From NCBI RefSeq assembly GCF_035474595.1, contig NZ_DATIND010000102.1:1-33358 (forward strand): a stretch of 33,358 nucleotides of DNA. The letters are read 5' to 3'. This DNA is from Longimicrobium sp. GTDB taxonomy: Bacteria; Gemmatimonadota; Gemmatimonadetes; Longimicrobiales; Longimicrobiaceae. Both the position numbers and the translations under genes were made by a program. The notes beneath the pieces are model-generated. The model worked only from the letters and a program-made list of their open reading frames with translations. It was not told where the DNA came from and made no database searches. Below are positions 4,457 to 31,001 of the stretch, one piece after another (the stretch's first letter is position 1; every line of letters begins with the position of its first letter).

Positions 4457-4469
4457 CTGAGATAAGGGA

Positions 4470-4505
4470 AGGCCCGGCAACGGTTTACGTTGCCGGGCCT
4501 TTTCG
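4470..4505 (+). terminator. Rho-independent terminator of tRNA-Asn
   Basis: A perfect 13-bp stem (4470-4482 with 4488-4500, AGGCCCGGCAACG) has a five-base loop GTTTA and is followed by TTTT. It begins 14 nt after the tRNA. Confidence 0.92.
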
Positions 4506-6490: not shown

Positions 6491-6603
6491 GGGCCGTATC
6501 CAATACCAGATCCGGCGGAAGAATCGGTGCACCTCGCCGAATCACGTGCTGCGGAGATGCGTAGACGATAGTTACAGTTTGGCCGGCCTCAGGATGACGT
6601 CGG
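6491..6603 (-). repeat. Dispersed repeat family B, copy B2 (internal deletion)
   Basis: Read on the minus strand it runs GACGTCATCCTGAGGCCGGC, a short variable part, then CCGCAGCACGTGATTCGG and GCCGGATCTGGTATTG. The central AGGCCGAAGGATCTAT core is missing. It occupies most of the 322-bp gap between the universal stress gene and the anti-sigma gene. Confidence 0.8.
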
Positions 6604-6661
6604 GTTGATGCGGCGAGGGATGCACGAACTGGATTCCCGGATTCGGCAGGAGAACAGGGGG

Positions 6662-8905: not shown

Positions 8906-8999
8906 CGGCAGCGCACGTGCGACTCGCCTATAGATCCTTCGGCCTGCAACCATTCGCGCGAGGGAAATGACAGTGTGGCCGGCCTCAGGATGACGTCCT
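8906..8999 (-). repeat. Dispersed repeat family B, copy B3
   Basis: On the minus strand: GACGTCATCCTGAGGCCGGC, then TTGCAGGCCGAAGGATCTAT, AGGCGAGTCGCACGTGCGCT. It fills much of the 353-bp gap after the universal stress gene; nothing else is seen there except the leader of the next gene. Confidence 0.85.
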
Positions 9000-9245
9000 T
9001 TCTATGCGTTTGGGATGCACAGGTGATTGCGGGTATCCGGTATGGCTGCTCCTGCTCGAGGTGAGCCGCGCCGGCCGGATGCAACGTACGGCATCTCCGC
9101 GGATGTAACGGATCCGGTTGCCGCGAGACTGCGGGATAGAGCGTCGCCGGTTCCCAGCGCTGGAGCCGGCGGCGTTTCTCCGCCCGCGCCGGAGAGTGGC
9201 GGGTGGAACCAGCGGATGAAGGGCAACCGAACCAGGAGGCCGGAG

Positions 9246-13203: not shown

Positions 13204-13290
13204 GTGAGCGCCGATGCCGCGGAATGAGCGGATCAGCCTCGCGCAGTTTGCGAGGCTTCCCGTCGTTGTTGCTGCGACTTCAGTCGCCGG
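13204..13290 (-). repeat. Two-hairpin dispersed repeat, copy A2
   Basis: Large stem 13235-13242 with 13250-13257, small stem 13274-13278 with 13283-13287 (loop TTCA). It matches A1 from the upstream GTGAGCG(C/T)... to the end, apart from scattered changes. Together with A3 it fills most of the 513-bp gap between the EEP gene and the DinB gene; no gene is seen there. Confidence 0.85.
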
Positions 13291-13425
13291 TGAGGGGGGC
13301 ATGGAAGGGCGATCGAAATCACGGCAACAACGGCCCGAAGTCCGCCTTCGCGGACTCCCTACCTTGCCATCTCCGCGCGTATCAAGCGGTCTACGACTTC
13401 GAACTCGCCTCCCCGCCTGAACCGA

Positions 13426-13490
13426 GCGGATCAGCCTCGCGCGGTTTGCGAGGCTTCCCGTCGTTGTTGCTGCGACTTTCAGTCGCCGGT
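13426..13490 (-). repeat. Two-hairpin dispersed repeat, copy A3
   Basis: Large stem 13433-13440 with 13448-13455 (loop GCGGTTT, one change from A1), small stem 13472-13476 with 13482-13486, loop TTTCA, one base longer than A1. Stems are conserved while the loops differ. Confidence 0.85.
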
Positions 13491-14186: not shown

Positions 14187-14252
14187 CGGCGGCGTCCGGG
14201 TGCCCTCTCGCACCACCTGCCCCGCGTCGGCGAGGTGGTGGGGAAACGAAGC

Positions 14253-14285
14253 CCCCGGCAGCGGTTCACGCTGCCGGGGCTTTCG
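14253..14285 (+). terminator. Rho-independent terminator after the DinB gene
   Basis: An 11-bp stem (14253-14263 with 14269-14279, CCCCGGCAGCG) with loop GTTCA is followed by CTTTCG. Its loop and CGGCA...TGCCG core resemble the tRNA-Asn terminator at 4470. Confidence 0.75.
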
Positions 14286-20028: not shown

Positions 20029-20090
20029 TCACGCGGAGAAGCGGAGGAGCAGAGGGAGAATTCCTCTGTTTCTCTGCTCTCTCCGTGTGA
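20029..20090. repeat. Imperfect inverted repeat with GAGCAGAG/CTCTGCTC core
   Basis: TCACGCGG (20029-20036) faces CCGTGTGA (20083-20090), with an inner perfect stem GAGCAGAG (20047-20054) and CTCTGCTC (20072-20079). The sequence type (CACGCGGAGA...CTCTGCTCTC) resembles a dispersed hairpin I have seen in many GC-rich bacteria. It abuts repeat B4. Confidence 0.65.
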
Positions 20091-20213
20091 TACGAAATCC
20101 GGGAGAAGGATCGGTGCATCCGACCCACTCACGTGCTGCCGCGCTCACAGATCCTTCGGCCTGCAAGGTGTTGTGCTGATGCGGGTTGCAGTGTGGCCGG
20201 CCTCAGGATGACG
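20088..20213 (-). repeat. Dispersed repeat family B, copy B4 (near full length)
   Basis: Minus strand: GCGTCATCCTGAGGCCGGCC, TTGCAGGCCGAAGGATCTGT, GCAGCACGTGAG, GATGCACCGATCCTTCTCCC, ending CGTATCA. One of the two most complete copies, defining an element of about 126 bp. With the uvrA remnant it accounts for most of the 703-bp gap between the orphan gene and the acetyltransferase; the rest holds no gene I can support. Confidence 0.85.
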
Positions 20214-20283
20214 CCAGGTGGGTGCAGTGCGGATGCAGAAGCTGATCTCCCGGATCCGGGATGAGACCAGCCTTCCAGCGGCG

Positions 20284-20808: not shown

Positions 20809-23230
<2,422 letters not shown>

Positions 23231-23237
23231 TCAGAGC

Positions 23238-23265
23238 GGCCCCGGCGAGCGAACTCGCCGGGGCC
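23238..23265. repeat. GC hairpin repeat, copy C1
   Basis: GGCCCCGGCGAG pairs perfectly with CTCGCCGGGGCC (12 bp), loop CGAA, followed by GAAG. C2 and C3 have the same stem and different loops. C1, C2, the aldo/keto remnant and the TGACAG repeat are the content of the 535-bp gap before the cupin operon. Confidence 0.85.
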
Positions 23266-23348
23266 GAAGGGTTCGCTGGCCGATCGATGCGCCAGCCGTC
23301 CGCGCCTTGACGTTGGCGACGGACCGCGAGCACGATGGATACAATGCG

Positions 23349-23376
23349 GCCCCGGCGAGCCTTCTCGCCGGGGCCG
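23349..23376. repeat. GC hairpin repeat, copy C2
   Basis: Same 12-bp stem, loop CCTT, followed by GAAG. It lies 84 bp after C1 in the same gap, about 110 bp past the 3' end of the alcohol dehydrogenase gene. Confidence 0.85.
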
Positions 23377-23485
23377 AAGCCATCGCCGAGTCGAACGAGT
23401 TCACGCGGCGCGTCGCGCGAAGCCACGGCTGAATTGCTGTCCCGACTGCACGATCCATCGGACGCTGCGCGCGTGCTTCGCCCCG

Positions 23486-24508: not shown

Positions 24509-24640
24509 CTCGATCCACTCCCATCGTTCACTGGTGATCGTGGCCAGCGCGGGCTCGCGCCGGCCACGCAGGCCGCTCGATCTCCGTCCGCCGCCACCCC
24601 CGCCGGGAATTTCGTTCGTGCATCCTCGCCGCATCAACTC

Positions 24641-24768
24641 GACGTCATCCTGAGGCCGCCCACAGCGTAACCAGCGTCCACACAGGAGGTTGCAGGCCGA
24701 AGGATCTATCGCCTCCGCAGCACGTGATTCAGCGAGATGCACCGACTCTTCTGCCGGATGCGGTATCA
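24641..24768 (+). repeat. Dispersed repeat family B, copy B5 (full length; supplies a stop codon)
   Basis: GACGTCATCCTGAGGCCGCC, TTGCAGGCCGAAGGATCTAT, CCGCAGCACGTGATT, GAGATGCACCGACTCTTCTG, ending GCCGGATGCGGTATCA. The last three bases (TCA, 24766-24768) read as TGA on the minus strand and are the stop codon of the SDR gene. Insertion may have reset that protein's C terminus. Confidence 0.85.
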
Positions 24769-25747: not shown

Positions 25748-26650
25748 ATGCCGGATATCACGGACGGCGTCCCGGAGTTCGTCGCGGTGGTGGAAGCGAA
25801 GGGCTTCCGCGCCGCGGGACGGCAGCTGGGCGTGAGCGGGACGGCGCTGAGCAAGGCGCTGCGGCAGCTGGAGCAGCGCCTCGGCGTCACGCTCCTCCTG
25901 CGGACCACGCGCAGCGTGCGGCTGACCGAGGCGGGAGAACGGTTCTACGCGGCTTCGCGCCAGGCGCTGGACGGGCTGCGGGCGGCCGCGGAGGCGGTGG
26001 GAGAGCTGGCGGACGAGCCCCGGGGGACGCTGCGGCTGAACATCAGCAGCGGAGCGGAGGGGTTCCTGCGCGGGCCCGCGCTCGCGGCGTTCCTCCAGGC
26101 GTACCCCCAGGTCCGGCTCGACATCATCGTCGACGAGGACGTGAGCGACATCGTGGCGGCCGGCTACGACGCAGGCGTCCGGCTGGGCGAGGTGATCGAG
26201 CAGGACATGATCGCCGTGCCCGCGTCGGGCCCGCAGCGGATGGTGGTGGTCGGGTCGCCCGCGTACTTCGCGACACGCCCGATGCCGGAGCACCCCCGCG
26301 ACCTTGCCGGGCATGCGTGCATCAACTGGCGGCCGGGTCCGGATGCGCCGCCGTACCGCTGGGAGTTCACCGAGCCCCGCGGCGGCGACTTCTCCGTCGC
26401 GGTGCCGGCCCGGGTGGTCGCCAACGACTTCTCGCTGATGATGCGGCTGGTGACGGCGGGGCTGGGGGTGACCATCGGGATGGGGGACGGAGTGCGGCCG
26501 TACCTGGACCGCGGCGAGGTGGTTGCCGTGCTGGAGGAGTTCTGCCCGCCGTTCGCGGGCTACTACCTGTACTATCCCCAGCGGCGGCAGGCCTCGCCGG
26601 CCCTCCGCGCGCTCATCGACTACCTGCTCCGCATCCGGCAGGCGCGGTGA
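25748..26650 (+). CDS. LysR-family transcriptional regulator
   Basis: This 300-residue regulator has the LysR winged helix-turn-helix at about 8-65 (FVAVVEAKGFRAAGRQLGVSGTALSKALRQLEQRLGV, then LLRTTRSVRLTEAGERF). The effector domain runs from about 90 (RGTLRLNISSGAEGFLRGPALAAF) to the C terminus. It presumably senses an aromatic or aldehyde-type compound and controls the divergent SDR and perhaps the cupin/aldo-keto operon. The start at 25748 gives MPDITDGVPEF, the usual ten residues before the HTH; an in-frame ATG at 25685 would lengthen it by 21 residues. An A-type hairpin repeat follows 9 bp after the stop. Confidence 0.94.
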   Translation: MPDITDGVPEFVAVVEAKGFRAAGRQLGVSGTALSKALRQLEQRLGVTLLLRTTRSVRLTEAGERFYAASRQALDGLRAAAEAVGELADEPRGTLRLNISSGAEGFLRGPALAAFLQAYPQVRLDIIVDEDVSDIVAAGYDAGVRLGEVIEQDMIAVPASGPQRMVVVGSPAYFATRPMPEHPRDLAGHACINWRPGPDAPPYRWEFTEPRGGDFSVAVPARVVANDFSLMMRLVTAGLGVTIGMGDGVRPYLDRGEVVAVLEEFCPPFAGYYLYYPQRRQASPALRALIDYLLRIRQAR

Positions 26651-26659
26651 GCCCTGCGT

Positions 26660-26709
26660 CCCCGGATTGGAAATCCGGGGCAACAACCGCACAAAGTCCC
26701 TGCGGGACT
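26660..26709 (+). repeat. Two-hairpin dispersed repeat, copy A5 (compensatory changes)
   Basis: Stem CCCCGGATT/AATCCGGGG (26660-26668 with 26672-26680), linker CAACAAC plus seven bases, stem AGTCCC/GGGACT (26695-26700 with 26704-26709). The linker and layout equal the A1-A4 copies read on the minus strand, but both stems have different bases that still pair fully. It begins 9 nt after the LysR stop and could end that transcript. Confidence 0.75.
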
Positions 26710-27693: not shown

Positions 27694-27718
27694 GTTGCGT
27701 CCCGGTGTGATACGAAAC

Positions 27719-27746
27719 GGCCCCGGCGAGATCTCTCGCCGGGGCC
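27719..27746. repeat. GC hairpin repeat, copy C3
   Basis: GGCCCCGGCGAG pairs with CTCGCCGGGGCC, loop ATCT, followed by GAAG as in C1 and C2. Just upstream is TGTGATACGAAA, the end sequence of repeat B4. It could terminate the small peptide gene. Confidence 0.85.
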
Positions 27747-27893
27747 GAAGCTTTCGCCGCGCGGATCATCGAGCCGCCGCCCGATCGAGCCCGCCGTTGG
27801 CGGCTCCCGGCATCGCCCCGTAGCTTTCGCCGCCCGTCCGCTGCCCGGCTTTCATCAGCCGGGTGGATCCGTATCCCCCGCACACGCACCCAC

Positions 27894-28592: not shown

Positions 28593-28648
28593 AGCCTCGC
28601 GCAGTTTGCGAGGCTTCCCGTAGTTGTTGCTGCGACTTCTTCAGTCGC
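28593..28648 (-). repeat. Two-hairpin dispersed repeat, copy A4
   Basis: Large stem 28593-28600 with 28608-28615, small stem 28632-28636 with 28644-28648; the small loop is TTCTTCA, three bases longer than in A1. It is followed through GCCGCGAACTTTCTA(TCTA) by repeat B6, as A1 is by B1. Confidence 0.85.
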
Positions 28649-28684: not shown

Positions 28685-28771
28685 TCAGGCCGGCCAACTG
28701 TCGTTGCCTCCGCACGAACGGTTGCAGGCCGAAGGATCTACAGGCGAGTCGCACGTGCGCTGCCGGATTGC
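28685..28771 (+). repeat. Dispersed repeat family B, copy B6
   Basis: CAGGCCGGCCAACTGTCGTTG, then CGGTTGCAGGCCGAAGGATC, TACAGGCGAGTCGCACGTGC, GCTGCCGGATTG. It forms a composite with A4. With D and A4 it accounts for the 471-bp gap before the response-regulator gene. Confidence 0.85.
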
Positions 28772-28802
28772 GCGATCGATCCCCGAAATCGGGATCACCA
28801 TG

Positions 28803-28837
28803 AAGGCCCGGCACCGAGCTTCGGCGCCGGGCCTTCG
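28803..28837. terminator. Hairpin upstream of the response-regulator gene
   Basis: GAAGGCCCGGC pairs with GCCGGGCCTTC, with an inner CCG/CGG pair across one A-C mismatch and loop AGCTT. It lies about 55 bp ahead of the kdpE-like start. It may end readthrough from upstream or be another dispersed hairpin. Confidence 0.55.
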
Positions 28838-30679: not shown

Positions 30680-30822
30680 ACACCGGATCTGGCAATCATC
30701 TCCCTGCTACAAACGCCACAGAGAGACGTCGTCCTGAGGCCGGGCCACACCGTCGTTGCCTTCCGCACGAGCGGTTGAAGGCCGAAGGATCCATAGGCGA
30801 GGTCGCACGTGCGCTTCCAGAT
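30680..30822 (+). repeat. Dispersed repeat family B, copy B7 with 5' extension D
   Basis: ACCGGATCTGGCAATCA, GCCACAGAGAGACGTCGTCC, TGAGGCCGGGCCACACCGTC, GGTTGAAGGCCGAAGGATCC, ATAGGCGAGGTCGCACGTGC. It shows that D and B belong to one longer unit. It is inverted relative to B8, 85 bp away, so the pair could fold into a long hairpin or be substrates for inversion. Confidence 0.85.
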
Positions 30823-30907
30823 TGCACGATTCGATCTTCTGATCCATAGCCGCAGCATCGTGTCTCGGCTGATGCGCTGATCCTTCCGACAGATTGAACG
30901 GTGAGGT

Positions 30908-31001
30908 CCGGCAGCGCACGTGCGTGAGCGGTTATAGATCCTTCGGCCTGCCAGCACTGGTGTAGACAAAATTTCGTCATGGCCGGCCTCAGGATGACGT
31001 C
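30908..31001 (-). repeat. Dispersed repeat family B, copy B8
   Basis: Minus strand: GACGTCATCCTGAGGCCGGC, GGCAGGCCGAAGGATCTAT, ACGCACGTGCGCTGCCGGAC. It faces B7. Together with the microsatellite, B7 and B8 fill the 519-bp gap between the kinase and the permease; no gene is seen there. Confidence 0.85.

Follow-up and report, generated by a model that had tools for sequence, protein, structure and literature searches.

What are the short two-hairpin repeats scattered through this stretch of Longimicrobium DNA, and why do their stems change in sequence from copy to copy and go on pairing? The window—the whole 33,358-nucleotide stretch analyzed, contig C102 of a 6.57 Mb genome—holds four copies of one family on the minus strand: A1 at 40–92, A2 at 13235–13287, A3 at 13433–13486 and A4 at 28593–28648. 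Their positions and layout, re-checked in the sequence, are those of the preliminary description: read on the minus strand, a GCGAC/GTCGC stem is followed by AGCAACAAC and seven further nucleotides, and then by a stem of AGCCTCGC/GCGAGGCT. The loop variants, too, are as listed: TTCA, TTTCA (in A3) and TTCTTCA (in A4). A reversed copy, A5, lies on the plus strand at 26660–26709, starting 9 nt past a stop codon at 26650, and is also laid out as claimed. Its first stem, of 9 bp, pairs 26660–26668 with 26672–26680 around the loop GGA (CCCCGGATT-GGA-AATCCGGGG); the linker CAACAAC follows at 26681–26687; and the second stem, of 6 bp, pairs 26695–26700 with 26704–26709 around TGC (AGTCCC-TGC-GGGACT). 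A sixth copy, absent from the earlier list and, like A5, of the B-family, occupies 13309–13356 on the plus strand, back to back with A2 and facing A3. Its stem 1 is degenerate, with four pairs out of five (GCGAT-CGAA-ATCAC), its linker is GGCAACAAC, and its stem 2 is AGTCCGC-CTTC-GCGGACT.

The general design of a unit is thus a first hairpin with a loop of T[G/A]AA or TGGAA, a linker characteristic of a clade of transposases—GCAACAAC in the host window—and a second hairpin; nearly all copies have both hairpins. A1–A4 and A5 represent two families that flank different transposase genes (locus L101 for the one, L102 and L103 for the other). That A5 might be unrelated to A1–A4 had been set as a test, and can be ruled out: the combination of its linker and that kind of stem turns up about 100 times in the genome, hundreds of copies share linker and layout, and Y1 transposase genes are flanked by copies of both kinds.

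The repeats are far more abundant than chance allows. The pattern GCAACAAC-N4-12-AGTCC has 248 matches genome-wide and GCAACAAC-N4-12-GCCTC has 263, versus four for the reversed-pattern control in each case. Repeats of the A5 kind occur in all nine congeners, with 29–153 matches in eight and one in G007, a genome that is 76% complete. R1, a covariance model of the repeat that was built and searched against the genus and its relatives as had been proposed, shows it to be widespread in the genus, with at least 149 copies in each genome (per-genome counts are lower bounds). Of the relatives that lack a Y1 gene, most have 0–3. G003 and G010, which are 86% and 72% complete, depart from this; in the first, many copies were found and no Y1 gene. 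Many host contigs end within A copies (C7:54, C8:54, C43:9, C48:9, C61:91, C62:89 and C63:93), which indicates that the repeat breaks the assembly and that the true copy number is probably higher. At C44 72859–73422, three like-oriented B copies are spaced exactly 255 bp apart, each with a facing partner; this is a tandem duplication of a unit that holds the element pair.

What, then, are they repeats of? The preliminary description had guessed at sites bound by a RAYT-like transposase, and that guess was largely right. Six host sequences, one of them a fragment, match the profile Y1_Tnp (PF01797), and a linked Y1 gene of the kind looked for was found for each family: the gene at C46 148725–149063, with which A1–A4 belong, lies between A copies, and B copies bracket Y1 genes at C91, C39 and C73, of which the one at C39 10086–10427 is most likely the partner of A5. 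When inverted repeats were sought around 20 Y1 genes from the genus and family, irrespective of their structure, all 20 genes proved to have the two-hairpin element on both sides as inverted, inward-pointing copies. The linker varies by gene and is GCAACAAC, GCTACAAC, GCTGGAAC or GCCTCGAAAA, with one odd form at L108. Identity among the host's five Y1 genes is 44–86%, and so they are not recent copies.

Where the guess fell short was the class of enzyme. The proteins carry the motifs DHVH (DHAH or DHTH in three), WQ and, mostly, Y[I/V]..QE.HH; they score 60–78 bits with the IS200 profile NF033573, above its cut-off of 55, and at most 30 with the RAYT profile NF047646, whose cut-off is 80. The solved structures nearest in sequence are those of IS200/IS605-family transposases. 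Motifs and profile scores together rule out a RAYT, and the motifs—DH[V/I]H, WQ and Y...Q..HH—identify the proteins, by the published definitions (PMC6006769), as carrying the signature of TnpA-Y1 subclass 1.2. One of them, encoded at C46 79048–79389 in the host (L105 1713–2405, minus strand), has a C-terminal extension that matches TIGR02574, a putative addiction module component, above cut-off; alignment shows a similar extension in its G008 homologue, L112.

We conclude that the repeats are very probably REP-like, non-autonomous DNA elements of an IS200-class HUH tyrosine (Y1) transposase. On single-stranded DNA, the enzyme would recognize the folded stems by their shape and the linker by its sequence, and might then cut the unit and copy or move it. 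Read in this way, the stems would be free to change as long as they pair; the linker would not. On the complementary strand, hairpin 1 comes after the tetranucleotide GTTG, or GTAG in other clades. Together the two look like a canonical REP on its GTAG foot, and the whole unit therefore resembles a REP plus a further hairpin. Conservation fades gradually outside the hairpins and so draws no sharp line for the ends of the element or for its target site.

The main rival is that each unit is a minimal IS200 element, with hairpin 1 as its left end and hairpin 2 as its right: a tiny, gene-less insertion sequence, with the Y1 gene lying between two such units. The enzyme, IS200-class by profile and with IS200/IS605-family transposases as its closest solved relatives in sequence, fits this, as do the two hairpins per unit and the gene-less copies, which far outnumber the gene-bearing ones. 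But the hairpin ends of an IS200/IS605 element should share one orientation on one strand, and the unit should move with its gene. Here, complete two-hairpin units are inverted around the gene, no identical gene is present in multiple copies, and gene-less units number in the hundreds. Conservation, moreover, is strongest between the hairpins rather than outside them. Hairpin ends the two kinds of element do have in common, but the arrangement makes a minimal IS200 unlikely.

The changing stems call for separate treatment. To begin with, the covariation is real. Among 100 copies collected by linker and AAGTCCCT only, such that stem 1 is unselected, stem-1 pairs 1–5 are paired in 98–100%, with two to three standard pair types at each, and 22 distinct combinations of stem-1 arms occur. 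Among 39 distinct copies with a five-base loop, chosen without regard to stem 1, 97.4% of stem-1 cells pair versus 74.0% when shuffled, and the covariation score is 0.504 versus 0.106 for shuffled and at most 0.132 for slid partners; both bases have changed at seven of eight pairs, a count whose reading as independent events is limited by shared descent among the copies. Covariation was counted on two alignments, numbered A4 and A5 in a series of their own (A2 of that series mixed two stem registers in MAFFT, and A3 contained a few misplaced rows); because the rows of alignment A5 were chosen for pairing, the unbiased evidence is alignment A4 and the 100-copy count alone. The claim that covarying stems mark a structure under constraint is upheld. 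The companion claim, that the A stem is fixed while its loop varies, holds within the window but not genome-wide, where GCGAC/GTCGC is found in 30 copies and the doubly changed GCGGC/GCCGC in 16.

Wobble is nearly absent from this record. A one-sided change to a wobble pair occurs in one of 312 stem-1 cells in the 39 copies; half-changed intermediates are almost lacking, and the stem variants are discrete. We take so few wobble intermediates to favor a DNA hairpin, or else the copying of one arm onto the other, over selection on RNA. Arm-to-arm copying, by template switching or hairpin-directed repair during replication, would generate covariation without any selection on the stem, and the discrete variants, the 22 arm combinations and the scarcity of intermediates speak for it. 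It leaves unexplained, however, the fixed linker, the match between linker and enzyme, and the shared design at both ends of the Y1 genes. As the source of the covariation we consider it doubtful; it concerns the diversification of the stems only, and could act alongside the REP-like behavior that we favor.

In 1.2 Mb of the 6.57 Mb genome, with genes predicted by a simple codon-usage gene finder, none of 108 copies lies within a gene, versus 78% of random positions; convergent gaps hold 38 of the 108, versus 18% of random intergenic positions, and the start of a copy is often no more than 20 nt from a stop codon. Neighboring copies less than 300 bp apart are about seven times commoner than chance (20 pairs versus 2.9 expected), and 14 of these pairs face each other, as in REPINs. 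Intergenic position, convergent-gap enrichment, nearness to stop codons and two conserved hairpins would all suit a structured RNA in 3′ UTRs—a 3′-end protector, as was suggested for A5, a terminator or an attenuator, selected on RNA structure site by site—but this option is very improbable, as copies in tandem gaps show no strand preference (27 lie with the genes and 33 against), a search of Rfam with the elements matched no curated family, wobble changes are down to that single cell although RNA stems usually tolerate G-U, and a tolerated mobile element would equally avoid genes and promoters.

The copies also differ in presence between relatives. At one syntenic position, the gap in the host contains two B elements in inverted orientation, that in G008 a B element unlike these, and that in G001 a repeat of another kind; in six congeners the gap is almost absent. 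Three congeners have the LysR-type ortholog but no A5 behind it. Relatives thus have empty sites, as they do for mobile elements, and we infer that the element transposes. The preliminary description had set a selected nucleic-acid structure against the simple copying of a mobile sequence. That is a false contrast: with copies dispersed in the genome and missing from syntenic gaps in relatives, the element is both.

The window contains other repeats as well. An unrelated dispersed family, GGCCGGCCTCAGGATGACG...GGTTGCAGGCCGAAGGATCTATCGGCG, is present at 125–231, 6571–6618, 8906–9014, 20088–20253, 24603–24768, 28697–28765 and 30738–30962, and a related repeat, CATCCTGAGG, occupies in G001 the gap that holds B elements in the host. 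G+C-rich hairpins of the types GGCCCCGGCGAG..CTCGCCGGGGCC (23228–23278, 23338–23388 and 27709–27759) and GCCCGGC..GCCGGGCCTT (4468–4501, 14249–14282 and 28802–28835) look like intrinsic terminators.

How far does the association between repeat and enzyme extend? A scan of a genome collection yielded 80 named relatives, chosen by similarity to the alignment and not as a census. Under a strict structural scan, inward-pointing elements flank the Y1 gene on both sides at 48 of 108 loci: 19 of 31 in Gemmatimonadota, 11 of 22 in Chloroflexi, four of eight in Armatimonadota and 14 of 31 in Cyanobacteria. The remaining 60 distant loci fail this both-sides test; the few in Planctomycetota, Bacteroidota and Acidobacteriota gave no such element pair, and neither did shuffled flanks. 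An outward-pointing copy is also present at about one-fifth of loci, as expected of dispersed repeats. In these other phyla, all ten genomes whose Y1 genes are flanked are positive for R1, with 17 to more than 150 copies (more than 150 in Oscillatoria sp. PCC 10802 and 144 in Nostoc sp. CHAB 5836), and all four whose genes are unflanked are without a single copy. The two-hairpin design thus surrounds related Y1 genes in at least four phyla: Gemmatimonadota, Cyanobacteria, Chloroflexi and Armatimonadota.

Within this range, the type of linker follows the tree of transposases. On a tree of 70 Y1 proteins, linker type requires 11 changes versus a mean of 24.4 when shuffled, and none of 200 shuffles comes as low, although near-copies inflate this statistic. 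The abundance of each sub-family follows its matching enzyme, too. The GCCTCGAAAA linker, the one that is fully private to its sub-family, marks 90 copies in G009, which holds its enzyme (L107), and none in nine congeners. The CTGGAAC...AAGACCGC kind numbers 103 copies in G005 and 68 in G006, where its enzymes (L116 and L109) are found; elsewhere there are 28 in the incomplete G003, 16 in G004, which has the related L113, and 0–2 in other genomes.

Of the systems already known, the closest are the ‘REPtrons’, in which REPs, REPINs or BIMEs accompany a RAYT (TnpA-REP) (PMC2817692, PMC3733652, PMC6006769). Like canonical REPs, the elements here are short intergenic palindromes present in hundreds of copies (the 248 and 263 matches above), some in REPIN-like facing pairs; and as in REPtrons, a single-copy Y1 gene lies between inverted copies of its own repeat family—true of all 20 genes—with one repeat sub-family per enzyme and copy number that tracks the cognate enzyme. 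REPs, however, have one hairpin per unit, and these have two; the canonical 5′ foot is GT[A/G]G, whereas the window copies have GTTG on the complementary strand, with GTAG confined to clades with CTAC linkers (L105, L120 and cyanobacterial loci, for example); and RAYTs are class 2 enzymes (Y...NP), whereas these are class 1 (Y...Q..HH). Subclass 1.2 shares with the present enzymes its motifs, a length of ~140–150 aa, low copy number and a prominence in Cyanobacteria. It is described as mostly cyanobacterial and Bacteroidetes, and is listed without REPs (PMC6006769); here, in contrast, two-hairpin repeats are abundant, and Gemmatimonadota, Chloroflexi and Armatimonadota are represented as well. 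TIRtrons, going by the description of their ‘double palindromic’ terminal repeats (PMC3733652, Fig. 9), are similar in that inverted repeats, some of two palindromes, flank the Y1 genes of TIRYTs. In the papers that we could search by sequence and by topic, we met no description of the element.

Overall, the element most probably serves class-1 Y1 enzymes as a REP-like substrate, and does so in no fewer than four phyla. We lean, with rather less assurance, toward a broader proposal: that the two-hairpin, clade-linker element is a distinct kind of REP, the substrate of subclass-1.2 (IS200-class) HUH enzymes across those phyla, read by stem shape and linker sequence, and that it links the ends of IS200 with the REP/RAYT systems. 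A group of transposases listed without repeats proves to have abundant repeats of its own, in a design that we did not meet in the literature searched. Enzymes and their matching linkers (CAAC, CTAC, CTGG and CTCG) form a natural series, which allows the reading of sequence and shape by HUH enzymes to be probed, and bears on the origin of REPs from IS200-type insertion sequences. In Gemmatimonadota, Cyanobacteria, Chloroflexi and Armatimonadota, the element also accounts for intergenic hairpins that number hundreds per genome and could pass for RNA motifs or terminators.
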